Virus record (IMG/VR): IMGVR_UViG_3300017788_000016
Location: 1 to 64,000 of that record
Direction: 5' to 3' (one strand)
From: a virus
Length of the DNA stretch: 64,000 bases
Shown here: positions 1,261 to 48,033 of the stretch, piece by piece
Layout: every line of letters begins with the position of its first letter
Numbering within the stretch: position 1 is the stretch's first letter
Notes under the pieces: model-generated
What the model was told of the DNA's origin: nothing
The model's input: the letters and a program-made list of their open reading frames with translations, nothing else
The model's database searches: none
Translations under genes and position numbers: made by a program

Positions 1261-1765
1261 GCTAAAGCTCAATGATTTGTTTGTCACCTATGGAGACACG
1301 GCTCACGCTGAACTGGCTGTTTTCCTTGATTTGCTTCGTTCCCTTGGCATGATCCACCACCAACATCACTGGCAGGCCACGGGTTCTCAGGCCTATGGAG
1401 ACCACCTTCTATTTCAGCGTCTCTACGAGGCTATTGACCTCGAGATTGACCAGCTTGGTGAAAAGACCGTGGGTCTTGGCGGCAATCCCCTTGTGGACTC
1501 TCGTCATGCCCTGGTGAACATGCCAAGGTTCATCAATGCCGTGGAAGAGGGTCTTGTGATTTCCCCGGATGAGTCTCCTGCCCTGGCAAAGGTAAGAAGA
1601 AGCCTTCTGGCCGAGCGTTCCTTCATCACAGCGGGCGAAAAGCTGATGAAGATGCTTGAAAGCAAGGGACAACTCACTCGTGGCGTGGAGAATCTCCTTG
1701 GCGGAATCCTTGACACTCACGAGACCCACGTTTACCTTCTAGAACAGAGAAGCAAGACTACCTGA
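1259..1765 (+). CDS. Dps-like ferritin-family protein
   Basis: This 168-residue all-helical protein resembles the Dps/ferritin-like family, which oxidises and stores iron and shields DNA from peroxide. Ferroxidase-type residues are visible in order: a His in HHQHHW near residue 37, a His in GDH, then Asp and Glu in EIDQLGEK followed by LGG. The Asp usually found four residues after the second His is replaced by Gln, so activity may be altered. ATG 1259 is chosen because helix A begins right after it; no clear ribosome site is seen. Its 3' end overlaps the next leftward gene by 8 bp. Confidence 0.7.
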   Translation: MLKLNDLFVTYGDTAHAELAVFLDLLRSLGMIHHQHHWQATGSQAYGDHLLFQRLYEAIDLEIDQLGEKTVGLGGNPLVDSRHALVNMPRFINAVEEGLVISPDESPALAKVRRSLLAERSFITAGEKLMKMLESKGQLTRGVENLLGGILDTHETHVYLLEQRSKTT

Positions 1766-2108
1766 GAGTACCACCGGAGACCACCTTAAGGTGATCCGAG
1801 GGGAACCAGCCAATCTGCTGATAGGCATCCAGAAAAACAGGGAACACGACCACAGTTTCGTTTCCGCCTAGGGATGCTCCCTGGTTTTGAAGGTGGTGCA
1901 TCTGAAGGCGATGAACCTTGAGGCCATCTCCCTGGATAACACCAGTGCTACCGGTCTTCACGCCACCCATGGACTTAACCACACCGAAACCATCATAGGT
2001 TTGCTGGAGGGAACCATCCGGGTTCGTAACTGGAGCATAGACGTGGACTACCTCGTCCTTGTTGATGTGCATCATGTTCGAAACTATCTGTACTCTATCG
2101 CCCTTCAT
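1758..2108 (-). CDS. Hypothetical protein, SH3-like N-terminus
   Basis: This 116-residue protein begins with a KGDRVQIVSN strand and has many short beta-strand and Gly turns, suggestive of a small barrel such as an SH3-like fold. It is the last gene of the leftward groEL operon and overlaps the upstream gene by 14 bp and the Dps-like gene tail to tail. No specific function can be given. Confidence 0.6.
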   Translation of the reverse strand: MKGDRVQIVSNMMHINKDEVVHVYAPVTNPDGSLQQTYDGFGVVKSMGGVKTGSTGVIQGDGLKVHRLQMHHLQNQGASLGGNETVVVFPVFLDAYQQIGWFPSDHLKVVSGGTLR

Positions 2109-2322
2109 GTTCTGCTTCCTTTTCTTTGCGCTCCTCTTCCTCCTCTAGGGAGAGCAGCTCAAGATACGTTTTGTTGATGTCTTCTACCCAATGCTGGCAT
2201 GCCAAACATACCTGCTTATTCCTATGCTTGTCGCAAAAGATTTTGTGAACGTCATAGATGCTATGACATTCCTGAATGCGCTTAATAGTCGCCTCTAGCC
2301 GAGTTTTCTTTTCCTGGTTCAT
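2095..2322 (-). CDS. Small Cys/His protein, possible zinc knuckle
   Basis: A 75-residue, mostly helical protein. Residues 28-45 contain a C-x3-H then C-x2-C-x2-H pattern (FCDKH, VCLACQHW) that could bind one zinc ion. The C-terminus is a run of Glu and Lys. Its start overlaps the groEL stop by 4 bp, so it is translationally coupled to the chaperonin; a role beside GroEL is possible but unproven. It does not resemble GroES. Confidence 0.6.
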   Translation of the reverse strand: MNQEKKTRLEATIKRIQECHSIYDVHKIFCDKHRNKQVCLACQHWVEDINKTYLELLSLEEEEERKEKEAEHEGR

Positions 2323-5120
2323 TCAACTTCGTTTACAACCACTGAGTTACAGGTTAGAACAAGACCAACAACGCTTGAGGCATGCTCCAGGGCGCAGCGG
2401 GTCACCTTCACCGGGTCAATGATGCCCTGAGCCACAAGGTCATCGTACTTGCCTAGGGCAGCATTATAACCATGGCGGAAGCGTCTGTCGTTTTCGTCAA
2501 GGATCGTACCATCCGTGGCGATGGACTGCTTCTTCATCTTGCTCTTGACGCTCTCAATGTAGGAAATGAGGTCCTCTGGGGCTACATTTCCAACGTCGAT
2601 GTAGAAAACCTTGTGATCGCCATGGGATTGTACTAGCTTCTCGATGACGATATCCGGGGATACGCCTGTGTTACCCACAATTGTTCTAAGTGGAGCCTCA
2701 CATACATTGGCAATCATCTCAATTCCTGAAACTTCGTCTTGTCCGAGACCAAACGTCAACACGGCTTCCTTGATTTTGTGTCTAAGATCAAGGGCTGCGT
2801 AGAAGAGGGCCGTGCCACCACCCGGAACGATTCCTTCCTGGGTGGCTGCCATGGTTGCATTCACGGCATCCTCAACTCGGTCTTTTTTCTCTAGGATTTC
2901 GACCTCTGTGGAACCACCTACCTTAATGACAGCAATACCACCACTGAGCTTGGCTAGACGTTTTCTGGTCTTGTCAGTGTGAAGAGCATCCAGAGTTCCC
3001 TGTTCCAGAAGAGTCCTTAGATTGGCCACTCTTTGCTCCACAGCGGCCTTTTTGTCCTCACCACCGGATCCAATGATGGTCGCACCACCCCTGCCAACGA
3101 TTACCTTCTTTGCCGTACCTAGACTGTCTACCCCGGCGTTCTTGATGGACAAATCGGTCGTGGCTCCAAAAACAACGCCTCCAACCAGGGTCTGAATGTC
3201 AGAGAGAATGTCTGCACGGTGCTCACCGTAGCTAGGAGCCTTGATGGCACAGACCTTGAGGATACCCTTCGTCTTGTTGACGATAAGGGTGTGAAGGGCA
3301 TCGCCTTCCACGTCATCTGCAATGATTAGGAGGCTGCGATTGTTCTTTGCGACACCCTCAAGGATCTTGATGATATCCTGGATGGACGAAACCTTGTTTG
3401 GAGTCAAGAGAACGTAGGGATTGTCAAGTTCACAGGTGGCCTTCTCGGAATTGGTAACGAAGAAGGGGCTGACGTAGCCGCCATCCACTTGCATGCCTTC
3501 CACAACCTCCAGGGTCGTCTGAACGCTCTTTGCGGGCTCGATGGTAATGATACCATCCTTGCCAACCTTCTGAATGGCTGTGGCAATTAGCTCACCAATG
3601 GAGCGATCCCCATTGGCCGAGATTGTGCCAACGTTCACAATGTCTTCCACGGAGCTTACAGGAATCTTTCTTTGCTTGAGGAATTCCAGCACCTCAGCGG
3701 TTCCAATGTCCATTCCCTTTTTGAGTCCAATTGAGGAGCGGTTGGTGGAAATCATCTTGATTCCCTCGGACAACATGGCTCTGCCCAACACAGTGGCTGT
3801 TGTGGTGTTGTGTGTTGGTACATAGTCATTAGTGATGTAAAGATGATCACTGTTGCTAACCTTGATGCACATCATTTCTGTCTTTTCACCAAGCTTCTCT
3901 ATGCCTTTGAGCCTCAAACCATACCTGTTCCCTTTCAGTTCACAAATTCTGTGTATGATTCCAGTTCCAAAGGACCCATCATTTTCTTTTCTATGATATG
4001 CTTTATGATATACCGATTTGCCCAGGCTTTTGCACAGCTCGATAAAATCACGGCAAAGCTGATCGCTTGCCGTACTGTATTCAAAAAGACCTTTCTTGTT
4101 GACGTATCCGTCAGTGTCAATTAGTCCCTGAAGTAGACGGTTACGAGTATCGATGGAAGAAAACAGGTATTGCTTCGGAATGAACTTGTTACGACTGTTT
4201 GTCCCAAGCAATCCGAGGTCGGTCAAATGAGTTTTTATCACCGACTTCAAACCTACTGGCTTACGGTTCTTTCGTTCGCTGCCTGTGATTGTCGCTTTAA
4301 TATAGTGCTTGTTGTCACGATAGAATTGTTTTCTGAGCTTTGTTCCGGTTGGTAGAATCAAATTATCGAGCATGTGCTCTTGATGTAGTCCCACAGCGAT
4401 TTCTACATCATGCATGAAAGACAGGCTTCCATCTCCGAGCAGAACGCCCAGCAGATATGGATCAATCGGAATCTCTGTATTCGACGCAAATTCTACAACT
4501 GTAGGTTTGATGAAGTATTTGCCGCCCCCGTGGCCGCTTCTTTCGACTCCATTTTCCAACAATTGCTTCGTTGTTAGCGTTTTTTTGCAGCCACGCAGGG
4601 TTGTGACGCTCCATAGATGCTCTTCGCTACATTCCACAAAACGACTGTCTGTGTTTCCATCTGAGAAAGTGACCTTGTAGATATCTTTTATGCCTTTGTT
4701 GTAAACGCCAAGAACACTTTGCACGGTTCCGTTTGTCCCACAAATAGCATCTCCAACCCTTAGACTTCCTAGGTTGGTCCACCCTTTGGGTGTTAAAACC
4801 TTGGCATAGGTTGGTTGCGGCCCATCGCCAGCAATTTCATTCGTCTTACCAGCAATTTCCTTGAGAAGCTCTGCTCCCATGGACTGGAGTCTGTCTCGGA
4901 GCTTGATGGAACGAGCCACCGTCACACCATCCTTGGTGATTTGAGGAGGCCCGGTTTCCATGTCAATGATAACCGAGTGACCGCTTGGTCCCATGGTGCT
5001 CGCCACTGCGTCCGCAAGGATGTTGGCTCCCTTTAGAAGCTCATCGTGGGCCCTTGGGGCAAACACAACCGTTTGCGTGGGTTCATCAACAAACGTAGAA
5101 GGCTGCTTTGTCTTTGTCAT
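2319..5120 (-). CDS. groEL: Phage GroEL-type chaperonin with intein and portal-like insert
   Basis: A 933-residue group I chaperonin, an ATP-driven protein-folding ring. Family marks are all present: the LGPKG-like segment (TMGPSG, 43-47), [10 protein letters not shown] (61-70), the ATP loop GDG-TTTAT, the catalytic Asp in [12 protein letters not shown] in IVPGGG, and GYNAA with GIIDP near the C-terminus. The ATP loop is interrupted after residue 100 by a 338-residue intein. A second, non-intein insert of 48 residues (836-883) sits just before GYNAA and matches the portal protein. Removing both leaves 547 residues, the usual GroEL length. No GroES-like gene is seen in the window, so it may use a host co-chaperonin or none. 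It is part of a tightly overlapping leftward operon. It probably folds virion proteins such as the capsid protein. Confidence 0.95.
2472..2615 (-). other. Portal-derived segment inside GroEL
   Basis: These codons (residues 836-883) have no counterpart in ordinary GroEL, where the text runs directly from a Gly-Asp turn to GYNAA. They share the exact 11-mer [11 protein letters not shown] with the portal protein of this phage (portal product residues 994-1004), and similarity continues through the next helix (D, Y, E, VK and a later G..I.D). Over the 33 bases that encode the 11-mer, 28 are identical and all five differences are synonymous. Confidence 0.85.
3807..4820 (-). mobile_element. Intein in GroEL, LAGLIDADG type, class 3-like
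   Basis: Residues 101-438 of the GroEL gene product are an intein inserted between Gly and Thr of the GDG-TTTAT nucleotide-binding motif. It starts with Pro instead of Cys or Ser and ends VPTHN. The set Trp170 (HLW in block B), Cys418 (MMCIKV in block F) and Thr436 (PTHN) matches the WCT triplet that defines class 3 inteins, which splice without an N-terminal nucleophile. Two LAGLIDADG endonuclease motifs are visible, LLGVLLGDG at about 223-231 and [10 protein letters not shown] at about 329-338. Without splicing the chaperonin would lack an ATP site. Confidence 0.9.
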
Positions 5121-10615: not shown

Positions 10616-13600
10616 TTGGCCAACAACGATTCTTTCTTCAACAGGCTCACGAGACTCTTTAGGTCTGGGCCTTCCATTCAGAGGCGTGTCAAGGGCTACG
10701 ACTATCGGACCTACTATGACAACGACATAATCAGGGGTAACTATGGATACAGGGCACCCTTTCCCTTTGGACGAGAGAGTTCTCCATTCTCGGTGCTTGG
10801 AGCCTATGGTATCCTTGACCGAATGGCCCGTTACAGCGAGTTTGCTGAGATGGAGTGGTGTCTTCATGAAGATACAAAAATTGCTGTTCCCGGTGGCTAT
10901 AAGACCATAAAAGAATTGGCAGAAGAATATGGGACAGACAAGGAGTTCACTGTCTACTCATATGACCACGCAAAGAAGAAGATTGTTCCTGCGGTTGGTA
11001 AGCAGGCAAGACTAACGAGGCACGATCATGCCTGGCGTGTTGTTTTTGACAGCGGCAAGGAAATAATTGGAACGGCCGACCACAGATTGCTTAGGCGAGA
11101 TGGAACCTACAGTACCATCGCAGACCTAAGGCCTGGTGATGCTATGATGCCTTTCTATCGACGTTCGGTGGGTACAGACAGAACAGAGAATCGGACCAAC
11201 CAATATCAGACAATATATTCCATTTCAAGGGAAGACAGCAGATATGGATGGATCGCAGAACATCGCCTTCTAGCCGAACATGTTCTGGGTCGCAAGCTCA
11301 AGGCAAATGAAGTTGTTCACCACAAGAACTTTCTTGCCAATGATAACCGTCTAGAAAATCTTGAGGTCATGACAGAAACCGAGCATCGGCATCTACATGC
11401 CGCTGTTCTTAATGGCAAAAAATGGAGTGCCACCAGCAATGGAGAATGGATTGCCAAATTTAGGAAAAATCACTCTGAGTGGATGAAAAAGAACAATCCG
11501 GCAGAGAGAAAAGACGTTACTTTTGCAAAAGTGCTGCAGTGGTGTGATGCCAACGGCTTCAATTTGTATCGAGTTGCAAAGGCCTTCGATGTATGCCATG
11601 AAACTGTTATCAGCAGAGTTAAGGCAAATGGATTCTCAAGTTTCGAAGATTTCGCAAAGGCCTATAGACCAACTTGGAAAAGTGAAAGCTGGGACAATGA
11701 GGGTTCCAAAAATCCTAGGTACCGAAAGGATATCTCGTACCAAGGCATTTGCAATGCCTACTCAAAAGGAATTAGCAAAAGGCAGCTAGCCAAAAGTCTT
11801 GGCTGTTCTTCTGTTCCAATCGAAAAAAGGCTTAAGGCAGAAGGGTATGCCTCCTGGACAGAATTCGTCAACTCTTACGAGAATCACAAAGTAGTAAAGG
11901 TTGAGTATTACGGGCACATTCCGCTATATGACCTTACTGTGGATGGCTACAAAAACTTTGCCACCGACAGCGTCATTTCCCACAATACTCCCGAGATTGC
12001 GGCTGCCCTAAACATTTTCGCTGATGAGACAGTTTCTGGTGACGAAAAGGGGAAGGCCCTCCACCTCTACTCCAAAAACCCCGAGGTCAAGAAGGCCCTC
12101 GAGGAACTGTACTATGACATTCTGAACATCGACTTCAACCTGAGGCCCTGGGTAAGAAACCTCGTGAAGTACGGTGACTTCTTTCTCTACAACGAGATCA
12201 TCCCAGACATTGGTTTCGTTAACGTCCAACCAATCCCTGTGAATGAGCTTGAGAGAGAAGAAGGCTTCGACAGGGATGACCCATACTCCATTAGATACAA
12301 GTGGCTAACCAGGGGTAACCGCTATCTTGAAAACTGGCAGGTCACCCACATGAGAATGCTAGGAAACGACCTGTTCCTTCCCTATGGCACCTGTCACGAG
12401 AAGACCACCAAGGTTCTAACCTCCTCAGGTATTAAGGAGATACAGCACATAGTGCCTGGCGACGTGGTTCTCTCTTTTGATCTCAAGTCGCAGAAAAAAG
12501 TCAAGTCACCAGTGTTGGGCGTCAAAAATTCAGGCTTCAAGAACTGTTTTGAATTTAGAACCAGACACAATTTCCTTAGAACTTCCAAGGAACATCAAAT
12601 ACTTGTATGGGATTCTTCTAGAGAGAAATTTGACTACAAAAGTGCTGGTGAGCTTCGGCTGGGTGACAAGCTTGTGATCAGCAAAGAGCACAAAATAGAA
12701 AATTCCAAGATCAAGATAGACAAAACCGCCCCTTCGGGCATTAACAAGAATGGCTATTGGAACAGTGTTTCTAATATTCCAGATGAGGTCACACCAGATT
12801 TCGCTCGCTTGTTTGGTTTTTTGATGGGCGATGGATGGATTACTGGCAATCAGGTCTTTTTTGCTAATGGCATTGACCTCAAACAAAACGAACGCTATTC
12901 TCTGTTGCTTGAAAAATTCTCTGGAAAGAAGGCAAACTCTGAGTGCCGCCAAGGCACGCAGACTGTGCTCTCCTCAAAAATGTTTGGTGAGATCCTGAAA
13001 CGAATGGGATTTGCTGGCAAGGCAACCACCAAAAGAGTTCCTTCTTGGGTTTTTGGAGCTTCTGAGGATCTCCGTCTTGCTTTCCTGGAGGGATTTCATG
13101 ATGCAGATGGTAGCTCTTTTGTTGATAAGTGGAATTGCGAACGCCGCACCTTTGAGCTATCCAATTATGACTTGATTAAGGACCTCAAGGCCCTTGCCCA
13201 GACGCTTGGCTTCAAAACAGGCAAGATAACAGAAAGAAAGTCTAGAACATTTGCAACTGGAATTGAGGAAAACGGTTCTTTCCGCTCGTTCAAAACCGTT
13301 AGCCCTTCCTATGTGTTTTATTGGTTTGCAGCACAAAACAAGCAAGTTAAAAAGCATGATGTGACCAATAGAGTTTCTGACGATTTCCTAATTGAGCCAA
13401 TTGTGGCGATACAAAACGTTGGGGAACACGAAACCTACGACATTTACGTCCAGGACAACAACCACAATTTCTTTGCCAACGGCATTGTCACCCACAATTC
13501 CCTTTTGGAACCTGCCAGAAGAATCTGTATGCAGCTAAGAATGGCTGAGGATCACATGTTGCTCTATCGCGTGGTAAGATCCCCAGAGAGACGTGTGTTC

Positions 13601-14998
13601 TATATCGACGTTGGTAACGTTGCCCCAAATGACGTTCCTGCCTACATGGAAGCTGTTAAGCAGACTCTCCGTGCAAAGGACTTGGTTGACAAGTCCACCG
13701 GACGCATCGACCAGAGAAACAACTCGGTTTCCATCATCGATGACTACTTCCTGCCTGTGAGAGGTAATCAGACCGGCACAAAGATCGATACCCTGGCTGG
13801 TGGTCAGAATGCCACAGCCGTTGAGGACGTAAAGTATCTCCAGCAGAAGCTCTTTGCGGCTCTACAGGTTCCAAAGCCCTACCTTAACTTCGATGAAAAC
13901 CTTTCGGCAAAGGCCAGCTTGGCCCAGCAGGACATTAGGTTCTCCAGAACCGTGTCTATTCTCCAGAGGGTCATCATTGCAGAGCTTAACAAGATGGGCA
14001 TGATCCACCTCTATGCCAGAGGCTTTGACGGCGAGGACCTCATCAACTTTGAGTTGCGCCTGAGCAACCCTTCTACTGTGGCAATGCAACAGAAACTTGA
14101 GGCCATTGCAACCAAGTTCGAAATTGCTGGTGCTGCAAAGGAAACCAAGCTGGTAGACGAGGACTGGATTCAGAGAAAGGTTCTTGAGCTAACCGAGGAT
14201 GAAATCATCAAAATTGAGGCGGGCCGCAGGAGAGACAAGATCCGTGAGGTAGAAATCGAGGCGGTGTCGGTTGCTGAGAATCTTCCAAAGCCAGATGCCA
14301 CCATCGATCCTTTCCATCCTTCCAATTATCAGATAGGTGGTGGAGACGTGGCAAAGAATCCCCCGGTGGAGCAGCCTGCGCAAACCGTCATGGGAATTGG
14401 AACCCCATCCCCTGCTGGTGGCGGAGCCCCACTTGGACAGCCCCAAGCCCCTCAGGGTCCAGCTCTGGGTGCCCCAATTTCGGCTACTCCTTTCGCCTCT
14501 AGACAAAAGGAAAAGAAATCCCGAAGGGTTGGTCTTGGCGGGCGCAACAACCTTTCCATGCCTGACTTCTCCTCAATGCTCTCATCCAAGAACCGCTCCC
14601 TTACTGACGTATACGATAGCGAGACCATAAATCTCAGACAGTCCATTACCGAGGACATTGAGCTTGACATTAGGTCTGCTCCTTTCCTACCAAATGAAAT
14701 GCGGTCCATCTTCAAGACCCTGGATACGCACTTCGAGAAGAACTACGCCAATGTGTCAGGACAGAGAAAGCTTCTCAGGGAGCTAAAGGAGCAGGTTCCA
14801 ACAATCGACTTCGAGTTGACCGACGACGCCGACGAGGATGAGAAGTCCTCTGACGACTCCGAGCGTGAGGATTCCGAGGATTCCTTGCTGACGGAAACCC
14901 TTGAGGGCGTGATCAAGAAGGATGAGGAGGCCTCTGAGGACCCACCTGAGAACACCCCTAGGAAGCTGACCGATATCGATCTTTCGACTTTGGACTGA
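10616..14998 (+). CDS. 20: Portal protein (T4 gp20-like) with two inteins
   Basis: A 1460-residue precursor. After removing two inteins about 715 residues remain, matching the T4 gp20 family, the 12-fold ring through which DNA is packaged. Portal marks include MARYSEFAEMEW-TPEIAAALNIFADE, LRPWVRNLVKYGDFFLYNEI, LPYGT-SLLEPARRI, and [11 protein letters not shown]. The tail beyond about residue 1240 is longer than in T4, with Pro/Gly linkers and a very acidic end that may be disordered. The TTG start at 10616 is preferred because AGAGG lies just upstream. It opens the head operon. Both inteins must splice out to give a working portal. Confidence 0.93.
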   Translation: MANNDSFFNRLTRLFRSGPSIQRRVKGYDYRTYYDNDIIRGNYGYRAPFPFGRESSPFSVLGAYGILDRMARYSEFAEMEWCLHEDTKIAVPGGYKTIKELAEEYGTDKEFTVYSYDHAKKKIVPAVGKQARLTRHDHAWRVVFDSGKEIIGTADHRLLRRDGTYSTIADLRPGDAMMPFYRRSVGTDRTENRTNQYQTIYSISREDSRYGWIAEHRLLAEHVLGRKLKANEVVHHKNFLANDNRLENLEVMTETEHRHLHAAVLNGKKWSATSNGEWIAKFRKNHSEWMKKNNPAERKDVTFAKVLQWCDANGFNLYRVAKAFDVCHETVISRVKANGFSSFEDFAKAYRPTWKSESWDNEGSKNPRYRKDISYQGICNAYSKGISKRQLAKSLGCSSVPIEKRLKAEGYASWTEFVNSYENHKVVKVEYYGHIPLYDLTVDGYKNFATDSVISHNTPEIAAALNIFADETVSGDEKGKALHLYSKNPEVKKALEELYYDILNIDFNLRPWVRNLVKYGDFFLYNEIIPDIGFVNVQPIPVNELEREEGFDRDDPYSIRYKWLTRGNRYLENWQVTHMRMLGNDLFLPYGTCHEKTTKVLTSSGIKEIQHIVPGDVVLSFDLKSQKKVKSPVLGVKNSGFKNCFEFRTRHNFLRTSKEHQILVWDSSREKFDYKSAGELRLGDKLVISKEHKIENSKIKIDKTAPSGINKNGYWNSVSNIPDEVTPDFARLFGFLMGDGWITGNQVFFANGIDLKQNERYSLLLEKFSGKKANSECRQGTQTVLSSKMFGEILKRMGFAGKATTKRVPSWVFGASEDLRLAFLEGFHDADGSSFVDKWNCERRTFELSNYDLIKDLKALAQTLGFKTGKITERKSRTFATGIEENGSFRSFKTVSPSYVFYWFAAQNKQVKKHDVTNRVSDDFLIEPIVAIQNVGEHETYDIYVQDNNHNFFANGIVTHNSLLEPARRICMQLRMAEDHMLLYRVVRSPERRVFYIDVGNVAPNDVPAYMEAVKQTLRAKDLVDKSTGRIDQRNNSVSIIDDYFLPVRGNQTGTKIDTLAGGQNATAVEDVKYLQQKLFAALQVPKPYLNFDENLSAKASLAQQDIRFSRTVSILQRVIIAELNKMGMIHLYARGFDGEDLINFELRLSNPSTVAMQQKLEAIATKFEIAGAAKETKLVDEDWIQRKVLELTEDEIIKIEAGRRRDKIREVEIEAVSVAENLPKPDATIDPFHPSNYQIGGGDVAKNPPVEQPAQTVMGIGTPSPAGGGAPLGQPQAPQGPALGAPISATPFASRQKEKKSRRVGLGGRNNLSMPDFSSMLSSKNRSLTDVYDSETINLRQSITEDIELDIRSAPFLPNEMRSIFKTLDTHFEKNYANVSGQRKLLRELKEQVPTIDFELTDDADEDEKSSDDSEREDSEDSLLTETLEGVIKKDEEASEDPPENTPRKLTDIDLSTLD
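10859..11986 (+). mobile_element. Portal intein 1 with HNH endonuclease
   Basis: Residues 82-457 (376 aa) form an intein that starts with Cys (CLHEDTKIAVPGG), has block B GTADH, and ends VISHN before Thr. The inner domain carries an HNH motif (VVHHKNFLANDNRLENLEVM), followed by helix-turn-helix-like repeats at about 305-345 and 378-420. The joined exteins read FAEMEW-TPEIAAAL, as expected for a gp20-type portal. Confidence 0.92.
12392..13498 (+). mobile_element. Portal intein 2 with LAGLIDADG endonuclease
   Basis: Residues 593-961 (369 aa) form a second intein starting with Cys (CHEKTTKVLTSSG), with block B TSKEH and ending GIVTHN before Ser. Two LAGLIDADG motifs are seen, LFGFLMGDGW near 732 and LEGFHDADGS near 824. 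The exteins rejoin as LFLPYGT-SLLEPARRI, the conserved gp20 text. Confidence 0.93.
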
Positions 14999-15070: not shown

Positions 15071-15943
15071 ATGTACAAGCACAACAAAAAGAGAAACATC
15101 GGCCTGATTAGTGAGTTTTTTTCTCGTTATATGGCCGCAGCCTTTGTGGATGGCAGACACGCCGACATAGAAAAGGCCAATGCTGTTTGGCGCAAGTACA
15201 TCAACCCTAAGACAGAGGCCTATCGGGAGTATGTGCTATTCAATGCTCTCCATGAGACCAGTCTCAAGGACCGCAATGTGGCTCACTCTCTTTTGGAGAA
15301 GGTCAAGTCCGAGGTAAAGAAGCAGTCCCAGGATCGTCTTGACAAGGAGAAGAATTCTCTTATCAACGAGATCAACTCTGCCCTCAAGGACCCTGAGTTT
15401 TTTGGTCGTTCCGTGGAAGACTACCGGGACATGGCTTCTATCCAGCTTTTGATGAATGCCTGGAGAGGTATTGGCTTCAAGGGCTCTTTGTCGGAGTTGG
15501 CAACGCTTGAGGAAAGCGTCTTGGACTCCATGCTCAAGACCAAGGTCCAGGTGACCGATGCCGCAGCCGATTTTTCGTCGGAGGACGTGGACGGACTTGT
15601 GGTTCGTTTTATGACCGAGAAGTTTAATCGCAAGTATGGCTCGAGCCTCAACAAGGAGCAGTCTGACATTGTTCGTCTCTTTGCTTTCTCTAGCAAGGAC
15701 AATGACGCCAAGGAATCCCTGGTTCGGCTGTTGGAAACCATCAGGAAAACAACCCTCGAAGTCCTGGATAGCAGAACCCTAAAGGAGAGCATTGGTGTTC
15801 CCCTGAGCAAGAAGCTCCTTGAGATAAAGGAAATGCTGTCCACTGGTGGCAAGTATGGGAATGTTCAGGACCTGTCCGAAGATACGATTTCCTTCTACAT
15901 GACAGTCTCGAAACTGAAAGAGGAAATGGAGAGTTCTGAATGA
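15071..15943 (+). CDS. Hypothetical head-module protein between portal and protease
   Basis: A 290-residue, mostly helical protein. ATG 15071 is preferred to the TTG two codons upstream. In T4 the genes between portal and protease encode prohead core proteins (gp67, gp68). This one holds that position and overlaps the protease gene by 4 bp, but it is much longer and shows no clear similarity by eye. A role in prohead assembly is inferred from context only. Confidence 0.65.
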   Translation: MYKHNKKRNIGLISEFFSRYMAAAFVDGRHADIEKANAVWRKYINPKTEAYREYVLFNALHETSLKDRNVAHSLLEKVKSEVKKQSQDRLDKEKNSLINEINSALKDPEFFGRSVEDYRDMASIQLLMNAWRGIGFKGSLSELATLEESVLDSMLKTKVQVTDAAADFSSEDVDGLVVRFMTEKFNRKYGSSLNKEQSDIVRLFAFSSKDNDAKESLVRLLETIRKTTLEVLDSRTLKESIGVPLSKKLLEIKEMLSTGGKYGNVQDLSEDTISFYMTVSKLKEEMESSE

Positions 15944-16554
15944 AACTACTACGAGAATTCAAGGAATTTGATTACGAGGTAATCTCTGAGGCTGCTGTGG
16001 CTGGCGACGGCCGTCCTGGTCGTCTCTTTGTTAAGGGCGTGGTGCAAATGGCCGACACCATCAACCAGAACGGCAGAATTTACCCAAAGCCAATTCTGTT
16101 CCGTGAGGTTGAGAACTATAAGAAGGTCATCGAGGAGCGCCGGGCAACCGGAGAGCTGGACCATGCCGATGAGCCTGTGGTTAACCTCAAGAACGTGAGC
16201 CACCGCTTTACCGAAATCTGGACCGAGGGAAATGTGGTCTTTGGAAAGATTGAGATCCTTCCAACCCCTATGGGCAACATTGCTCGTGCCCTCATCGAGT
16301 CCGGCGTCAAGATTGGCATTTCCTCTAGAGCCCTTGGTTCGGTGAGGAATCGAGGCGATGCAGACATTGTTGAGGACGATCTCCATCTGGTTTGCTGGGA
16401 CCTTGTTAGCGAGCCCTCTACTCCTGGTGCCTTTATGATGAAGGAAGCCAGAGATATCGATCCAAAGATCCTAAATTCCATATTCTCTAAGTCCGATCGC
16501 ATTGACCGTGTGGCTAATGAGATTCTGGGCATCAAGAAGGTAGGAAAGCTATGA
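15940..16554 (+). CDS. 21: Prohead protease (T4 gp21-like)
   Basis: A 204-residue serine protease that cleaves scaffold and capsid precursors inside the prohead. The catalytic His is in GELDHADEP (His75) and the Ser in KIGISSRALGS (Ser128/129), with RIYPKPILFREV and the FGKIEILPTPMGN strand typical of the family. Its own N-terminus contains VISE-AAVAG at 14-21, an I-x-E site where self-cleavage could occur. It overlaps both neighbours by 4 bp. Confidence 0.93.
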   Translation: MKLLREFKEFDYEVISEAAVAGDGRPGRLFVKGVVQMADTINQNGRIYPKPILFREVENYKKVIEERRATGELDHADEPVVNLKNVSHRFTEIWTEGNVVFGKIEILPTPMGNIARALIESGVKIGISSRALGSVRNRGDADIVEDDLHLVCWDLVSEPSTPGAFMMKEARDIDPKILNSIFSKSDRIDRVANEILGIKKVGKL

Positions 16555-20169: not shown

Positions 20170-22074
20170 ATGAAATCATTCACATTGTCGCAGTTGGCAG
20201 AGGGCGTGCACCGCAGAAGTCTTGGTGCAGAGACTCCTCGTTTGCTTAAGAAGTGGGGTGCAACTGGCCTCCTTGAGGGTATGAAGGGCGTCTCTAGGGA
20301 CAACATGGCCATTCTCCTTGAGAACCAGGCAGCCCAGATGCTCAAGGAGCAGAACAGCCTTTCCACTGGCGGTGGTAACCTCGTCAGCTCGGGTCAGGTT
20401 GTCGGCTTTACGAACGTCGCATTCCCTATCGTAAGAAGGGTTTTCGCCGGTCTTATCGCCAACTCCCTTGTGTCGGTTCAGCCAATGAGCCTTCCAACCG
20501 GTCTTCTGTTCTACCTCGACTACACCTACGGCTCGAACGTTGGTGGCGCAGCAGGTGTGACCCTTGACTCCGCTGCTGCATCCTCGGTTTACACCGATGG
20601 TCAGTCGGTGTTCAACAACCCAAGAGGCGCAGGAGTTCGCTCCGGTTCTCTTGCGGCTGGTGGCTACCATGACCTCGTGGGCACGGGCTTCTCGAAGGTC
20701 CACAAGTTCAGCCAGCTCCTGTCGTCCTCGCTAGCCGATATCGGTTACTGGGCCTCGGGTTCTATCTGGACGGCAGCCTCCACTGCAACCGTTGCAGGTG
20801 CGGCTGACTTCACCGGGTTCAATGCTCGCTATGCAGGCTATGACTCGAAGATCGAGACCGACCTCACGGACGGCGTGCTTGACTTCTCGTTCATGATGCT
20901 CCCAACCTCGACCATCACCTCGACCATCACAGGCGCAGACCTTTCCAACCTTGACCAGATTGCCATCACTGGCTTCGGTACCCTAGGTGGTAGCGTTCAG
21001 GCCTGGGGCGAGCAGTACCAACAGGGTACGAACGTTCTCAACCTCCGTAAGCTGAACCGCAGAGGTAACTGGTCGTCCTCGACCGGTCTCTTCACGCCGG
21101 ACCCACTTAACGGCTCGCACGTTCTCTTTGTGCTTCGTATCGCCAATGCAGGTACGAACCCACAGCCAGTTGCAGCAGCAACCTCGGGCTCCGCAGCAAT
21201 CTCTGATTCGCTTAGCGTGAACTCCGATGGCGCAGCACTTACCATCCCAAGCTTCGAGTCTAACTTCGCAGTTGATGCGTCGCCAAAGATCCCAGAGGTC
21301 GATATCCGTATCGAGTCCACCTCGGTAACTGCAACGACCCGCAAGCTGCGTGCTCGTTGGTCGCCAGAAATGGCTCAGGACCTTACGGCCTTCTACTCGA
21401 TTGACATCGAGGTCGAGCTTACGAACATGCTCTCTGAGATGATCACTCTCGACATCGACCGTGAAATCCTTAACGACCTGCTTAGCCAGGCTGGCGCAGC
21501 AAACCTGTTCTGGTCCAGAGCCCCAGGCAAGATCGTTAACAAGGTCACCGGTGCAGAGGCTCTCCAGTCCACCACCCTGGCCCCAGGCCCAATGGCATTC
21601 ACCAACATCCAAGAGTGGTACCAGACCCTCATCGAGACCATCTCGGATGCAGGTAACACCATCTACAAGAAGACCCTCAGAGGTTCTGCAAACTTCCTGG
21701 TAACCAGCCCAGACGTGTGCACCATCCTTGAGCACCTTGTCTCGTACAAGGCCTCCTACCGTCTCGACAGCGACGGCCAGGTGAGAGACAGCATGTCGGT
21801 CGGCGCTGAGAGCGTTGGTACCCTTAACAACAGATACACTGTGTACAAGGATCCATACTTCCCAAGCAACAAGATCCTCGTTGGTCTTAAGGGCAACACC
21901 TTCCTCGAGAGCGGCTACATCTACGCCCCATACGTTCCGCTCATCATGTCGCCTGTGATCTATGCACAGGAAGACTTCACCCCACGCAAGGGCGTGATGA
22001 CTCGCTACGGCAAGCGCATGGTCAGAAATGACTTCTACGCAACCGTGACGGTGCTCGATATGGCACTTATATAG
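20170..22074 (+). CDS. 23: Major capsid protein (T4 gp23-like)
   Basis: A 634-residue HK97-fold capsid precursor. Family marks are VVGFTNVAFPIVRRVFAGLIAN, LVSVQPMSLPTGLLFYLDY and the C-terminal GVMTRYGKRMVRNDFYATVTV. The N-terminal about 60 residues form a pro-region with candidate cleavage sites LLE-N (51-53) and MLKE-Q (58-61). It is well biased in codon use, ends with a terminator 40 bp downstream, and is preceded by an AGGAG ribosome site. Confidence 0.95.
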   Translation: MKSFTLSQLAEGVHRRSLGAETPRLLKKWGATGLLEGMKGVSRDNMAILLENQAAQMLKEQNSLSTGGGNLVSSGQVVGFTNVAFPIVRRVFAGLIANSLVSVQPMSLPTGLLFYLDYTYGSNVGGAAGVTLDSAAASSVYTDGQSVFNNPRGAGVRSGSLAAGGYHDLVGTGFSKVHKFSQLLSSSLADIGYWASGSIWTAASTATVAGAADFTGFNARYAGYDSKIETDLTDGVLDFSFMMLPTSTITSTITGADLSNLDQIAITGFGTLGGSVQAWGEQYQQGTNVLNLRKLNRRGNWSSSTGLFTPDPLNGSHVLFVLRIANAGTNPQPVAAATSGSAAISDSLSVNSDGAALTIPSFESNFAVDASPKIPEVDIRIESTSVTATTRKLRARWSPEMAQDLTAFYSIDIEVELTNMLSEMITLDIDREILNDLLSQAGAANLFWSRAPGKIVNKVTGAEALQSTTLAPGPMAFTNIQEWYQTLIETISDAGNTIYKKTLRGSANFLVTSPDVCTILEHLVSYKASYRLDSDGQVRDSMSVGAESVGTLNNRYTVYKDPYFPSNKILVGLKGNTFLESGYIYAPYVPLIMSPVIYAQEDFTPRKGVMTRYGKRMVRNDFYATVTVLDMALI

Positions 22075-35132: not shown

Positions 35133-38100
35133 ATGGCAGATCAGATATTCAATTTTCCAGGATTTTACGACAGAGAAATCGATCTCACAGCCCGTGTTGC
35201 GTCGCCAGTTGGCGTACCAGGAGGTGTGGTCGGTGCTTCTCTGCGTGGCCCGGCTTTCGTACCAGTTACCATTGGTTCTTTCAGCGATTTCGAGACGAAA
35301 TTTGGCGGTCTATCTTCCAAATTGGCGGCTCCCTATGCTGTTGAAAAGTTCCTCCAGAACAGAAACGCCCTGACCTTCGTCAGGGTACTGGGCGCTGGTG
35401 TTAACGAAACCTCGGCCCAGTTCGAGGCAACCAGAACCCAGGGCATCGTTCGCAATGCCGGTTTCAAGGTGAGCGGCACGGTAGCTACCGGAGATACCCG
35501 TCACCAGGGAAGCGTACAGTTCCTCGTTGCAAAGCACCTTCTGACTGGCTCCGAAGTGTTCGGTATGCCAATGTTCACCGACAACCGCTCCTTCCTTCAG
35601 AGTGGTTCCTCCGATGAGGTCTATCTCGTAAGAGGCGAAATCTTCACGGCACACGACACCCGCATCATGGCCCTAAGCCACAATGAAAGCTGGGCAGCCG
35701 GTGTGGACGATGCTGCAACCCTAAGCCCAACGGCCAAGTTCTTCAAGCTCGTCATCTCCTCCTCGCAGGGTGCAACCTTCGGTACCTCTGATGGTTTCAA
35801 TGGCCTCAGAATCTACTCGGCATCCTTCGATCCAGACTCAGATCTCTACTTCGGCAAGCTTCTTAACACGGACCCAAGCAAGTTCGAGACCGAGAGACAT
35901 TTCCTTCACGCAGACTTTGCAGTGGATGCCCAGATTGCCTCGGCTCACACCGGCACCAATGCCGTAGTTGTGGCCTCGGGTTCGGCAAACACCTCCTCGA
36001 CTTCTGGAAACACCTCCCTATTGTTCAGAGAGGCCTTCGGTCGCTTTGACACCAGGTACAAGACCCCAAAGACCCCATGGTTCATCTCGCAGCCTTACGG
36101 TTCCACCGAGCATAACCTATTCCAGATTGAGGCTCTTGACGACGGTGAGTATGCAAACACGCAGTTCAAGATTTCCATTGTCAACATCGTGGCCTCGGTT
36201 AACCCACGCTACGAGTACGGCACCTTCACGGTGGTCGTAAGAAAGTTTGACGACTCCGACCTTAACCCAGCAGTTCTTGAGCAGTTCACGAACGTCACCC
36301 TTGATTTCTCGGCAGACAACTACATTGCCAAGGTGATTGGTGATGCAAAGGTCGAATTCAAGTTCGACGTAGAGGACCAGGGTGACCGCAAGCTGGTTCG
36401 TTCTGGCAAGTTCCCAAATCTCTCGAAGCATATTCGTGTGGTTGTGAATGAGGGCGTCGAAAAGAAGAGTATTCCTGCCTCCTGCCTTCCATTCGGTTTC
36501 AGAGGAGCCCCGGTTCTCAACACCAACTCCCTTTTGGGTGATATCACTGGTTCGGGTGGTTTCAGCTCCCTGACTCGTCTTGGTGCAAGCGGCTCGGCTC
36601 TTGACCCACGCCTCCTGGCAGCAGTCGTTCCACCAATTCCTTTCCGCTTCAAGGTGACCAGAGGTCAGGTTGCCACGGGTTCCGGTCTTACCGGCGCTCC
36701 TGGTCCCTCGGAAATCACCGACAACCGCTTCTATTGGGGCGTGAAGTTCGAGCGTAACAACGGGGACGTTCTAAACACCAACATCAACAACAAGCTGAAT
36801 GCCATCGTGTCCTCCTTCACGAAGATGCCTGGCATTGACAAGCTCGATGTGGCTGTGACCGGAGCCTTCTCGGACACCTTCAACAACAACAAGTTCACCC
36901 TGGCTCGTGTGGCCCTTGGCAATGCCTCCATGGCACAAATCACTGCCTCGGCAAACACGCACATGAGAGAGGCCTGCTATATCCGCAATGGTATCCCAGA
37001 TGCCACGGAATACAAGATCACAGACGGTTCCACCAGCAGAATCACTCTGGCAAGCCTTATCCACAGCGGCACCATGCCAACCCTCTTCAATAAGTTCAGC
37101 GACTTTGCGAAGTTCACGGTATTCCTGAATGGTGGTTTCGATGGTGTCAACTCCCTTGATGCCAACGCAATCAACTTCAATGACCGCTCGACCTCCACTG
37201 AGGCAAGAGGTGCAACTTACGGTAACTCCAACGCAAACTTCACCTCGCCTGGTTTTGCATTCAACCAGAACGGCGTGGGCATTGTGAACAATCAGGTTGC
37301 CTCCATCAAAGTTGCGGCAGATATCATCACCAATCCAATCACCTCGAACATCAACCTCCTAACCGTGCCTGGTCAGAGAGAGCCTCTGGTTGTGGACTAC
37401 GTTTCTGACGTGGCTTCCAGCTTCGGTCTGGCAATGTTCCTAATGGACATTCCAAACTATAACAGCAGCGGCGACCGTATCTTCGACGGTGAGACAGCAA
37501 ACAGCTCGACCTATGTGGATGTTGAGCAGACTGCAAATGCTTTCGAGACCAGAGCCCTGGATAACACCCTTGTCACGACCTACTTCCCAGACATTGTTAT
37601 GGATGATAGCTCCACCGGCAAGAAAGTGACTGTTCCGGCTTCCATTGCAGGTCTTGCAGCCATTGCCTACAACGACAGGGTTGCTCACCCATGGTTTGCT
37701 CCTGCTGGTTTCAACCGTGCAGCACTCAACTTTGTGAGCCTCACAAAGACACGCCTCAAGCAGAGCGAGAGAGACCGTGTTTTCCAGGCCCGCATTAACC
37801 CAATCGTCAAGTTCCCAAATGAGGGCTTCGTGATTTTTTCGCAGAAGACCCTTGATGGAAACCAGACCGCCCTCGACAGCATCAACGTTCAGAGAATGGT
37901 GCTTGATGTTGAAAGACAGGTTATCGACGTTGGTAACCGCATGATCTTCGAAAACATCACGCCAGACCTCTACACGGAGTTTGTATCTAAGGTTTCGCCA
38001 ATCCTTGCAAACGTGCAGAGCCGTCAGGGTCTCAAGCAGTTCAAGGCTGTGTGCGACGACACAAACAACACTGAGCTGGACAGAGAGAACAACAGAATGA

Positions 38101-38195
38101 ACGCCAAGATTTTCTTGCTGCCAGTCAAGGCAGTTGAATTCATCCAGCTTGATTTCATCATCACGCGTAATGGAGTGGCATTCGCAACCTCCTAA
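35133..38195 (+). CDS. 18: Tail sheath protein 1 (T4 gp18-like)
   Basis: A 1020-residue contractile sheath subunit. The N-terminus GVPGGVVGASLRGPAFVPVTIGS and TFVRVLGAG, and the C-terminal domain VPASIAGLAAIAYNDRVAHPWFAPAGF with VNPIV-like ARINPIVKFP and SQKTL, are typical of gp18-type sheaths. It is longer than T4 gp18 (659 aa) because of extra middle domains. A close paralog follows 50 bp downstream. AGGAAAGAC precedes the start. Confidence 0.93.
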   Translation: MADQIFNFPGFYDREIDLTARVASPVGVPGGVVGASLRGPAFVPVTIGSFSDFETKFGGLSSKLAAPYAVEKFLQNRNALTFVRVLGAGVNETSAQFEATRTQGIVRNAGFKVSGTVATGDTRHQGSVQFLVAKHLLTGSEVFGMPMFTDNRSFLQSGSSDEVYLVRGEIFTAHDTRIMALSHNESWAAGVDDAATLSPTAKFFKLVISSSQGATFGTSDGFNGLRIYSASFDPDSDLYFGKLLNTDPSKFETERHFLHADFAVDAQIASAHTGTNAVVVASGSANTSSTSGNTSLLFREAFGRFDTRYKTPKTPWFISQPYGSTEHNLFQIEALDDGEYANTQFKISIVNIVASVNPRYEYGTFTVVVRKFDDSDLNPAVLEQFTNVTLDFSADNYIAKVIGDAKVEFKFDVEDQGDRKLVRSGKFPNLSKHIRVVVNEGVEKKSIPASCLPFGFRGAPVLNTNSLLGDITGSGGFSSLTRLGASGSALDPRLLAAVVPPIPFRFKVTRGQVATGSGLTGAPGPSEITDNRFYWGVKFERNNGDVLNTNINNKLNAIVSSFTKMPGIDKLDVAVTGAFSDTFNNNKFTLARVALGNASMAQITASANTHMREACYIRNGIPDATEYKITDGSTSRITLASLIHSGTMPTLFNKFSDFAKFTVFLNGGFDGVNSLDANAINFNDRSTSTEARGATYGNSNANFTSPGFAFNQNGVGIVNNQVASIKVAADIITNPITSNINLLTVPGQREPLVVDYVSDVASSFGLAMFLMDIPNYNSSGDRIFDGETANSSTYVDVEQTANAFETRALDNTLVTTYFPDIVMDDSSTGKKVTVPASIAGLAAIAYNDRVAHPWFAPAGFNRAALNFVSLTKTRLKQSERDRVFQARINPIVKFPNEGFVIFSQKTLDGNQTALDSINVQRMVLDVERQVIDVGNRMIFENITPDLYTEFVSKVSPILANVQSRQGLKQFKAVCDDTNNTELDRENNRMNAKIFLLPVKAVEFIQLDFIITRNGVAFATS

Positions 38196-38245: not shown

Positions 38246-41230
38246 ATGACACAAATTAACTTCAAATCGGCTGGTGTTTCAGCTAGAACAATAAACCTTT
38301 CGGGACCAACGGGAATCCAGCCCTCGGGCATTCCTGCGGGTGTTATTGGCACCTCTCAAAAGGGACCAGCCTTTGTTCCTACGACCGTGGCAACCATGGC
38401 CGACTTCGTTGTTAAGTTCGGCGCTCCCTCGGATGCTGCCCAGAATGGTCCAATGGCCATGGCAGAATGGCTCAGGAATCAACAGGCAGGTACCTTCGTA
38501 AGGGTTCTTGGTGCCGGTCAGGGTCTTAGAAGGACTCAGGATGGCAACAACATCGGTAAGGTAGCTGGTGCAGGCTTCGTAGTCGGCAGTCAGCTTCCTC
38601 AGGGTACTCTGGCTGGCAACGTGGGTAACAACCCATACGCCACGACCGGTGGTGTCCTTGGAAGAACCTTCTTCCTTGGCTCCTTTATGAGTCAGAGCAC
38701 CGACTCCAATATCTTCTCTGATGCAGGTTTGCCAAACGGAGGCGTCCCTGTGGTCAGAGGTGTCATCATGGCAGCCTCGGGCGTTCTCCTGACACTTTCT
38801 AGCTCCACCGTAACCTCCAATGCAAGCACCACCTCGGCAGCCACCTGGGCGACCGTGGGAGGCGCAGTAACGGGTTCCGTAAACCTTAATTCTGGCCGCC
38901 AGGAGTTCGTGCTCCTAGTTAACGGCCTTAAGGGAACCGACTCTACGTTCCCTACAGTTATTACCGCATCCTTCGATGTGGACGCTCCAAACTACTTCGG
39001 TTCCTTGTTCAACAGAGACCCTGAGAAGATTGAGCAGGCTGGTTACTTCCTCTACAACGATTGGGTGATTCATCCAACCTTGGCAGTTGTGACCGGTGCC
39101 GCAGTTCTTACGACCACTGGCATTGTGGCCGGGTTCGAAAAGGCTGCTTTCCTCATCACCGGTTCTCAGTTGAGAGACGTTGGTACCTCCACGGCTCCAA
39201 ACTTCGAGAACTTTGAGGACAGATTCCGTACCGCCAAGTCCACCTGGATCACCACCCAGAAGTTCGGTGGCGCTCCTCAGAATCTTTTCCGCATTCACTC
39301 CCTGGATGACGGAGCCTGGTCGAACACCAACATCAAGATTTCCATCGAGAACCTCACTCCTTCCATTTCGGACGCAAGCCCCTATGGAACCTTTGACCTT
39401 CTCGTTAGAAGCTTTGATGACAACGACAAGGTGAGAGAGGTGCTTGAGGCCTTCAGAGGCCTTAGCCTTAACCCAAACAGTGAAAACTTCATTGCCAGGG
39501 TCATCGGCGACTACAACACCTTCTACAACTTCGATACCACTCAGGGTAATGCAAAGCTGGTAACCGAGGGCGACTATCCAAATAACTCGAAGTACATTCG
39601 TGTTGAAATGGATGCCCGTGTGACGAACGAGGAAGTAGATACCTCGGCGCTTCCTTTCGGTTTCAGAGGCGCTCCTCACCTTATGACCTCCGGGTCGGCT
39701 CCATTCGCAGCCTTCGATGGTGGTAGCAGCTTCGTTTCTACCAACCCATTCTACAACACCGTTCAGATGCCTGTCCCAATGAGACAGAACCTCAACAGAG
39801 GCCTGTATCCAAACAAGACTGTGGACAAGGGTCTTTACTGGGGTGTTCAGTTTGAGAGAAGGACCTCGGCCCTGGAAGCAAACAAGAGCACAATCCCAGA
39901 GAGCACCATTGGTTCCTTTGCGGCCTACTTCCCAGACTTCCACACAAGCTGGCAGAATGTGGTCGTGAGCAACAACCAAGGTGCCCTTGATACCACCGCA
40001 AACGGTATCATTGATGCTGACCGTTTCAACAAGAATGCATTTTCCCTCGAGAACATTCAGGTGAAGTACAACAGCTCCACTCTGCTTCCTGACACGACTC
40101 AGATCACCAGTTGGTCCTATGTTCGTGGCGGTGGCATTGCAACGGACAACGTGAACCTCACCAGGGCTCTTGCAAGCACCGACCTTAGCGATCCATCCAC
40201 CAGACAGCTTGCTAAGTTCTCGTTCTTCCTTCAGGGCGGATTCGATGGCACCAGAGTCTTCAACCGTGATGAGGCGCGTCTTTCCAACGAGGCAATCGTA
40301 GAGGAAATCAACAACTCCTCCAGAGGCGGTACCCTCGGTCCAACCGTGACCTCCTACAATGCGGCCCTGGATATCATGTCGGATGCAACCGAGGTTGACA
40401 TTCAGCTCCTTACCATCCCAGGCATCAAGGCCAATGTCATAACCGACAGAGCAATCCTTGTGGCTGAGGGTCGTTTCGATGCCCTGTGCCTTATCGATGT
40501 TCAGTCCTATGACACCAGCAACCTCTTGGTAACCGGTTCGGGTCAGACGACCTCTGTCCGTTACACCGCAACCAACTTCCGTAACCGTGGTCTGAACACC
40601 TCCTTCGGCGCAGCCTACTTCCCAGACGTTGTGATGAATGACTTGGTGAACGACTCCATAAGGACCGTTCCGGCCTCCGTGGCGGCTCTTGGTGCCTTTG
40701 GATTCAATGACAGAGTAGCTTACCCATGGTTCGCACCGGCAGGCTTCGCAAGAGGCGCTCTGGCAACCACCGTGGAAACCACCCTTGAGTTGAATCGTCA
40801 GAACATGGATGACCTCTATGAGGTAAACATCAACCCAATCGTTTCCTTTGCAGGTTCGGATGGTCCATTGGTGTGGGGTCAAAAGACCCTCTATGCTGAG
40901 GACTCGGCCCTGGACAGAGTGAATGTTCGTCGTCTCCTTCTGTCCATCAGAAGGCAGGTCAAGAAAATCTCCAACCGAATCGTGTTCGAGCAAGGTCTAC
41001 CAGAGACTCTTGCAAGATTCTCTCAGTTGGTGAACCCTGTCCTTAAGAGGATCCAGGATCAGAAGGGTGTGGATCGCTTCTTTGTGAAGATTGACACCTC
41101 CACCACGACCCAGGCAGACTTCGAGAATAAGACCATCAGAGGTAAGATTTTCGTGTCTCCAACCAGAACCCTCGAGTCCCTAAGCATCGACTTCGTGATC
41201 AACAACTCCAGCAACTTCGGCCAGGGTTGA
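38246..41230 (+). CDS. Tail sheath protein 2 (T4 gp18-like paralog)
   Basis: A 994-residue second sheath subunit with the same frame: GIPAGVIGTSQKGPAFVPTTV, TFVRVLGAG, ALPFGFRGAPHL, VPASVAALGAFGFNDRVAYP and NINPIVSF. It aligns along most of its length with sheath 1 (for example YGTFxxxVRxFDDxD and PFGFRGAPxL in both), but outer-domain regions differ. Both copies keep the core and arm regions needed for the sheath mesh, so both could build in. A mixed or layered sheath is possible. Confidence 0.92.
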   Translation: MTQINFKSAGVSARTINLSGPTGIQPSGIPAGVIGTSQKGPAFVPTTVATMADFVVKFGAPSDAAQNGPMAMAEWLRNQQAGTFVRVLGAGQGLRRTQDGNNIGKVAGAGFVVGSQLPQGTLAGNVGNNPYATTGGVLGRTFFLGSFMSQSTDSNIFSDAGLPNGGVPVVRGVIMAASGVLLTLSSSTVTSNASTTSAATWATVGGAVTGSVNLNSGRQEFVLLVNGLKGTDSTFPTVITASFDVDAPNYFGSLFNRDPEKIEQAGYFLYNDWVIHPTLAVVTGAAVLTTTGIVAGFEKAAFLITGSQLRDVGTSTAPNFENFEDRFRTAKSTWITTQKFGGAPQNLFRIHSLDDGAWSNTNIKISIENLTPSISDASPYGTFDLLVRSFDDNDKVREVLEAFRGLSLNPNSENFIARVIGDYNTFYNFDTTQGNAKLVTEGDYPNNSKYIRVEMDARVTNEEVDTSALPFGFRGAPHLMTSGSAPFAAFDGGSSFVSTNPFYNTVQMPVPMRQNLNRGLYPNKTVDKGLYWGVQFERRTSALEANKSTIPESTIGSFAAYFPDFHTSWQNVVVSNNQGALDTTANGIIDADRFNKNAFSLENIQVKYNSSTLLPDTTQITSWSYVRGGGIATDNVNLTRALASTDLSDPSTRQLAKFSFFLQGGFDGTRVFNRDEARLSNEAIVEEINNSSRGGTLGPTVTSYNAALDIMSDATEVDIQLLTIPGIKANVITDRAILVAEGRFDALCLIDVQSYDTSNLLVTGSGQTTSVRYTATNFRNRGLNTSFGAAYFPDVVMNDLVNDSIRTVPASVAALGAFGFNDRVAYPWFAPAGFARGALATTVETTLELNRQNMDDLYEVNINPIVSFAGSDGPLVWGQKTLYAEDSALDRVNVRRLLLSIRRQVKKISNRIVFEQGLPETLARFSQLVNPVLKRIQDQKGVDRFFVKIDTSTTTQADFENKTIRGKIFVSPTRTLESLSIDFVINNSSNFGQG

Positions 41231-47502: not shown

Positions 47503-48033
47503 TTAGAGCAAATCAAGGCTGTCGAGGGCCATGTAGGAGAGATCAGTTCCTCTTACATGGCCTTTTCTCATTAGCTCTCGGAAGCTCTCCAGGGAAATGA
47601 TCTCCACCGTAAGAAATTCATTGGGGTCCAAGTCCAACTTGGCAACCTTTTGGCAATTCACGGCCACAAACATGTGACGAATCCCTGTGGAGTATGGGGA
47701 ATAGGGAAGGGAACCTAAGTAGGTCAAAGTCCCCTTGTGGCCGGTTTCCTCCAAAAGCTCCCTCTCGGCTGCTTTTCCTGGATCCTCGCCCTCTCCAAGC
47801 CCTCCACCAGGCAGCTCCAATTCCTTCTTCTCGGAGCCCGGCCTAAACTGACGAACGCACACAACGGAGTTGTCATCCCTAAGAGCGAAAATCTGAACCG
47901 AGTTCTTGGCACCCTCAAGAATGAACGCTTCCTGAGCCCCATTGGGAAGTTCAAATTGCTTCACCACGAGACGCTTGTCATATCCGCTATCCTTGTGCTG
48001 GACAACGTAGTTCTTTTGGGAGAGCTTTTTCAT
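47503..48033 (-). CDS. Nudix hydrolase, ADP-ribose pyrophosphatase-like
   Basis: A 176-residue enzyme that splits nucleoside diphosphates linked to another group. The Nudix box reads GGGLGEGE then KAAERELLEETG, with all conserved Glu residues. A RQFRP strand before the box and a Pro-rich SLPYSPYSTG after it are like ADP-ribose pyrophosphatases. It is the third gene of a leftward operon; its start overlaps the previous stop by 4 bp. Its 3' end hosts a terminator for the opposite transcript. Confidence 0.88.
   Translation of the reverse strand: MKKLSQKNYVVQHKDSGYDKRLVVKQFELPNGAQEAFILEGAKNSVQIFALRDDNSVVCVRQFRPGSEKKELELPGGGLGEGEDPGKAAERELLEETGHKGTLTYLGSLPYSPYSTGIRHMFVAVNCQKVAKLDLDPNEFLTVEIISLESFRELMRKGHVRGTDLSYMALDSLDLL
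47527..47566 (+). terminator. Terminator for methyltransferase gene, inside Nudix 3' end
   Basis: Long stem GGCCATGTAGGAG paired with CTCTTACATGGCC-like sequence (about 13 bp with one G-U pair), then TTTT. It ends the rightward methyltransferase transcript while lying within the C-terminal codons of the opposite Nudix gene. Confidence 0.75.

Follow-up and report, generated by a model that had tools for sequence, protein, structure and literature searches.

The window, that is, the whole stretch of DNA that was analysed, represents the first 64,000 bases of the 65,371-base record IMGVR_UViG_3300017788_000016, an incomplete virus record. A group I chaperonin (GroEL) and a portal protein of the T4 gp20 type are encoded in it, together with the following neighbours and an intein (strand given where noted):

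1758 to 2108, minus strand: 116-aa SH3-like protein, neighbour of GroEL (AF2 and Foldseek)
2319 to 5120, minus strand: GroEL ORF, 933 aa including an intein and an insert (Pfam Cpn60_TCP1)
3807 to 4820, minus strand: GroEL intein, residues 101-438 (338 residues), between GDG and TTT of the motif GDGTTT (sequence; LAGLIDADG_3 and Hom_end matches)
10616 to 14998, plus strand: portal protein of the T4 gp20 type, 1460 aa including two inteins (Pfam Portal_T4, E=1.5e-65)
15940 to 16554: T4-type gp21 protease, downstream of the portal gene
20170 to 22074: gp23 capsid protein, after the gp21 protease

The GroEL ORF was assigned to the Cpn60 family by Pfam (PF00118, E=1.2e-52, 179.7 bits against a cut-off of 34.3). 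Once the intein was removed, both ATP-site motifs, GDGTTT and DRVEDA, were found, and the former was confirmed by alignment. A GroEL that is 77% identical to it is encoded by L003 (IMGVR_UViG_3300009169_000100), an independent contig from another metagenome; its AF2 model (pLDDT 88) shows the three-domain GroEL fold and matches 1mnf with a Foldseek TM of 0.89. The intein-free GroEL of the window has 595 residues, and 547 residues are left when its 48-residue insert is taken out as well, the size that had been given in a sequence-only reading of this DNA.

By eye, the GroEL intein shows class 3 features (a non-nucleophile first residue, W, C, and T at +1), and no report of an intein in GroEL was found by literature search. 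The GroEL of one relative (L169, 8683-11472) contains an intein at the same GDG/TTT site, and those of L003 and another relative, L168, contain none. In a further relative, L333, whose GroEL lies on the complement strand from offset 17022 onward, the ATP-site motif reads GDGTSSS where GDGTTT is usual, and this is precisely the site at which its relatives have the intein; the portal ORF of L333 (1515 aa) probably contains inteins. Matches to Intein_splicing, HNH_3 and LAGLIDADG_3 (Pfam) were also obtained with the portal ORF of the window, one of its inteins having an HNH and the other a LAGLIDADG endonuclease domain. The second of these stops about 30 residues ahead of the portal segment that recurs in GroEL.

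The window's record, which is incomplete, yielded no TerL gene. No match to Cpn10 was found in that record, a fragment, or in 10 of the 11 related records; a weak Cpn10 (GroES) match in the L167 record (G006; 48019-48183, minus strand) is the sole one among the 12 clade records. Host GroES or a divergent lid may possibly serve the phage GroEL. The 116-aa SH3-like protein adjoins GroEL in all members of the clade that were examined, and among the loci searched it was seen nowhere else. It was considered as a hidden GroES and rejected, since its AF2 model (pLDDT 84.5) gave only weak SH3-like matches in Foldseek and none to the GroES fold. Elsewhere in the window, two adjacent paralogous large proteins (35133-38195 and 38246-41230, plus strand), the first of which matches tail sheath, share many 48-aa windows that match one another.

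The features that connect GroEL with the portal are these:

2472 to 2615, minus strand: 48-residue GroEL insert, residues 836-883, just before GYNAA, without counterpart in the bacterial and other viral GroELs examined
2517 to 2615, minus strand: 33 residues of the insert that very probably derive from a portal (Portal_T4; HMM of non-clade portals)
2526 to 2597, minus strand: equivalent of the 24-residue T4 gp20 peptide 288-311 (alignment of the L003 portal to gp20)
2580 to 2615, minus strand: first 12 codons of the insert, a stretch under purifying selection (window against L003 codons)
13595 to 13678, plus strand: portal clip-tip segment homologous to the GroEL insert (alignment)

That this insert is foreign to normal GroEL had been claimed from the sequence alone, and it is borne out by the spacing between GGG and DP, which measures 110-128 residues in this clade, against 78-90 in 66 bacterial GroELs and, for the most part, 73-94 in the GroELs of other viruses. 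The insert was without a match in the 66 bacterial GroELs, judged by spacing, and in the other viral GroELs examined, so that the outcome by which the earlier reading would have been refuted, the insert in many non-phage GroELs, did not arise. Among the matches listed, GroELs from phage records were matched over at most about 1,580 bases with a query of about 570 residues, and they lack the insert, judging from this span. Motif scans for more insert-bearing GroELs returned L003 only or nothing, and the later members came from further scans.

Within the insert, GroEL residues 838-848 (2577-2609, minus strand) form an 11-residue peptide, including VFYIDVGN, that is identical to one beginning at portal residue 994 (13595-13627, plus strand). 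At the DNA level 28 of the 33 bases are identical and all five differences are synonymous, exactly as had been reported before. The likeness to the portal is ungapped across 33 residues, and the remainder of the protein is GroEL, with no portal stem, wing or crown. Against the ORFs of its own phage, the insert reached a Smith-Waterman score of 98 with the portal and 48 with the next best ORF, while shuffled inserts scored at most 60 against all ORFs. Portal_T4 was the only Pfam family matched by the inserts of the window (E=5e-4) and L003 (E=4e-5), and the portal family PHROG 213 was the top PHROG match. Single-query Pfam scores were not accepted as proof by themselves, since other inserts had matched unrelated families near 1e-3; scores were calibrated by 1000 shuffles of each insert instead. 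Such stray matches include HP0268 (E=8e-4) for the portal-derived insert of L164 and DUF4777 (E=0.003) for the insert of L169, which has no portal signal.

For this calibration, an HMM was built from the clip segments of 65 portals, the phage's own clade being left out. The insert of the window scored 43.9 bits and that of L003 43.6 bits, and the maxima of the shuffles were 8.5 and 10.1 bits, respectively (0 of 1000 reaching the real score in each case). Alignment of the eight inserts then known to the portal HMM by hhalign gave E=1.1e-11. Chance is excluded as the source of the match, and the profile match no better than chance that the earlier reading had named as a refuting outcome did not occur. 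A nonportal origin, in which the insert evolved an imitation of the clip or met it by chance, could appeal to the shortness of the segment and to the weakness of single E-values near 1e-3; nevertheless, the calibrated scores and the ungapped likeness make it very improbable, and convergence driven by selection over 33 residues is unlikely. Positions common to the inserts of the window and L003 match the portal consensus in 14 of 18 cases, which speaks for descent and not for function, because common descent alone predicts as much. On this comparison of sequences, the first 33 residues of the insert very probably descend from a T4-type portal (PF07230).

The sequence-only reading ascribed the insert to an old recombination with the portal gene of the phage. 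Its portal origin and its age stand, but the present portal of the phage was rejected as donor: several portals from outside the clade outscore its own portal against the insert (107 versus 98). The inserts show no greater likeness to their own portals than to other portals, and both have E (of PED) and a later-helix M, like the wider portal family, where their own portals have N and L. Since other portals match better and E and M are retained, the donor was a T4-type portal either older than the present one or different from it. The weight laid on the DNA match did not survive either. Randomisation of the codons of the shared 11-mer gave a mean of 26.2 identical bases of 33 (SD 1.6; P(>=28)=0.21), and the 28 observed are no sign of recent transfer because they lie within this expectation. 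These 28 shared bases might suggest that GroEL and portal of this phage recombined or underwent gene conversion recently, or that the assembly is at fault; such readings are refuted by the codon expectation, by the lack of any special closeness to the own portals, and by the same insert in L003, a contig from a different metagenome with no intein in GroEL or portal and with VFYIDVGN in its own portal.

The insert is common to nine related viruses (the window, L003, L164, L165, L166, L327, L328, L333, and L344), and its reading frame is intact in all nine. The strand VFY[IV]D is kept in six of them, each scoring above every one of its own shuffles, and eroded in three. On the non-clade portal HMM, L344 (11.2 bits), L333 (10.8), L327 (9.9) and L164 (9.0) exceeded all of 1000 shuffles, and L165, L166 and L328, which read LFVDIEN, scored about 2 bits, a portal likeness that is not significant. 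In the GroEL tree, the window and L003 form the sister, with 100% support, to the other seven members, among which L344 is basal. The GNVxP tip is gone in this seven-member group, which reads TENADV, TQNVDV or IENADV. Synonymous sites are saturated between the window and L003 (pS 0.76 over GroEL). Because VFYID occurs on both sides of the deepest split, the simplest view is that the piece was captured once, long ago, and eroded later, and the GroEL tree together with the observed sequences supports a capture that predates the split of the nine viruses.

An extension of some kind is present at the same site in all members of the clade, and in L004-L006, L167, L168 and L169 it has no portal signal. 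The extensions of these six viruses (roughly 25-40 residues, in the same loop of the C-terminal region) are mutually unrelated apart from close pairs (L004-L006; L168/L169). They were tried as the same segment and rejected on the absent portal HMM signal.

Selection on the insert was assessed from the codons of the window and L003. Its first 12 codons contain eight synonymous and no nonsynonymous differences (P=2e-6 if neutral), which shows purifying selection on this stretch, and the following 16 codons contain about 14.2 nonsynonymous differences. The strand and tip were thus kept while the helix and tail changed. A chance insertion that a surface loop tolerates and that drift is removing would account for the insignificant portal likeness of L165, L166 and L328 and for a tail that varies in length and sequence. 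But it would hardly leave 12 codons free of amino-acid change where synonymous sites are saturated, or an open frame in nine of nine members, and we regard such a relic as improbable.

When the portal of L003 was aligned to T4 gp20, VFYIDVGN fell on V284-N291, and the insert corresponds to about gp20 284-316. In T4, residues 279-358 form the clip domain, which lies outside the capsid and is the place where gp17 attaches; N291, M292, R295 and K296 probably touch gp17, and the peptide 288-311 binds this packaging ATPase by itself and inhibits packaging (PMC4493910). D279-A316 has been described as a terminase interaction region (PMC10893049). The clip also contains a beta-sheet that spans neighbouring portal subunits (PMC4493910). 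By alignment, the insert covers the apparent equivalents of both the gp17-binding peptide and the strand of the intersubunit sheet, and G-N-V, at gp20 positions 290-292, is retained in the inserts of the window and L003.

Based on this correspondence, we propose that the insert could serve for docking by imitating the portal clip, each chaperonin ring showing seven clip tips. A role in binding a partner from the phage head or packaging machinery seems to us somewhat short of an even chance. The earlier reading had suggested that the chaperonin might attach to the portal or prohead, or might interfere with portal assembly by competition; the place of the copied piece in the portal points first to the packaging ATPase. 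The large terminase of the phage would be the likeliest partner, because the copied segment equals the gp20 288-311 peptide that alone binds gp17. Next would come a free portal protomer; here the pairing would run through VFYID, a strand of the sheet by which the clips of portal subunits are joined, and since this sheet contributes to the contacts between subunits, portal binding stays possible. Between the two, we infer a modest preference for terminase. With either partner, the chaperonin might hold or fold its client, or stop it from acting prematurely. The fuller picture of a ring-shaped mimic of the portal vertex, with seven or fourteen clip tips binding the packaging ATPase or portal protomers, we put forward as tentative. 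Most of the gp17-binding peptide is a helix, which is much changed, and the strand and tip are best kept; this counts against docking, as does the lack of a TerL gene in the incomplete record. Since the sister group is without the GNVxP tip, any contact with terminase would be confined to the window and L003.

The position of the insert bears on its main rival. It follows the helix equivalent to GroEL alphaQ (462-471), and the alphaQ-equivalent region of the phage EL chaperonin is altered at the ring-ring interface (PMC7185714). A strand and helix captured by chance might simply pack on the equatorial domain or on the ring-ring interface and tune single- against double-ring behaviour, the portal origin being functionally meaningless. 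Besides the position, this reading draws on the VFY[IV]D strand, more widely kept than the GNV tip, and on the extensions of unrelated sequence at this site across the clade, which suggest a general structural tolerance or need there. However, in the AF2 model of the L003 GroEL the insert is the least confident part, and VFYID is a coil without packing (pLDDT under 50 for residues 495-502), and after it comes a helix (507-523); in addition, the tip G-N-V kept by the window and L003 is not needed by a generic strand. A flexible VFYID with a helix behind it, as modelled, would suit a docking peptide, although the low confidence may be a mere effect of the few aligned insert sequences. Such purely structural reuse is somewhat less credible to us than docking.

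Chaperonins choose their clients mostly by non-specific hydrophobic contacts. If docking were true, this GroEL would be a dedicated, addressable chaperonin whose docking surface was copied from the phage's portal, and self-mimicry would wire two assembly machines together, one for folding and one for motor or head assembly. With segment and likely partner so closely defined, a single peptide and a single binding assay would be enough for a test. Were its role merely structural, the insert would still represent a datable domestication of a fragment of a structural virus protein in an unrelated machine of cellular type. The literature searched, which did not include subscription papers and preprints, contained nothing on chaperonins that bear a piece of a portal or mimic one; in the sense that no precedent was found, a group I chaperonin of a phage with a portal fragment captured into it is new here.

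Compared with known systems, the insert is homologous to about residues 284-316 of the T4 gp20 clip, the peptide 288-311 included (PMC4493910); unlike in gp20, the clip piece sits on a loop of the chaperonin equatorial domain, without stem, wing and crown. Pseudomonas phage EL gp146, which has been described as distantly homologous to GroEL and as having remodelled domains, and the chaperonin of Bacillus phage AR9 are likewise carried by phages and depart from bacterial GroEL, among other places close to the ring-ring interface (PMC7185714, PMC9598537). The GroEL of the window differs from gp146 in that it stands closer to its bacterial counterparts (up to 46% identity among the loci compared) and in that the origin of its additional piece, the portal clip, is identified. 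In the head assembly of T4, which uses host GroEL with the phage protein gp31, the phage likewise modifies chaperonin function for head proteins (PMC3012670). T4 alters the co-chaperonin lid, whereas here the phage's own GroEL bears the piece of a head protein.
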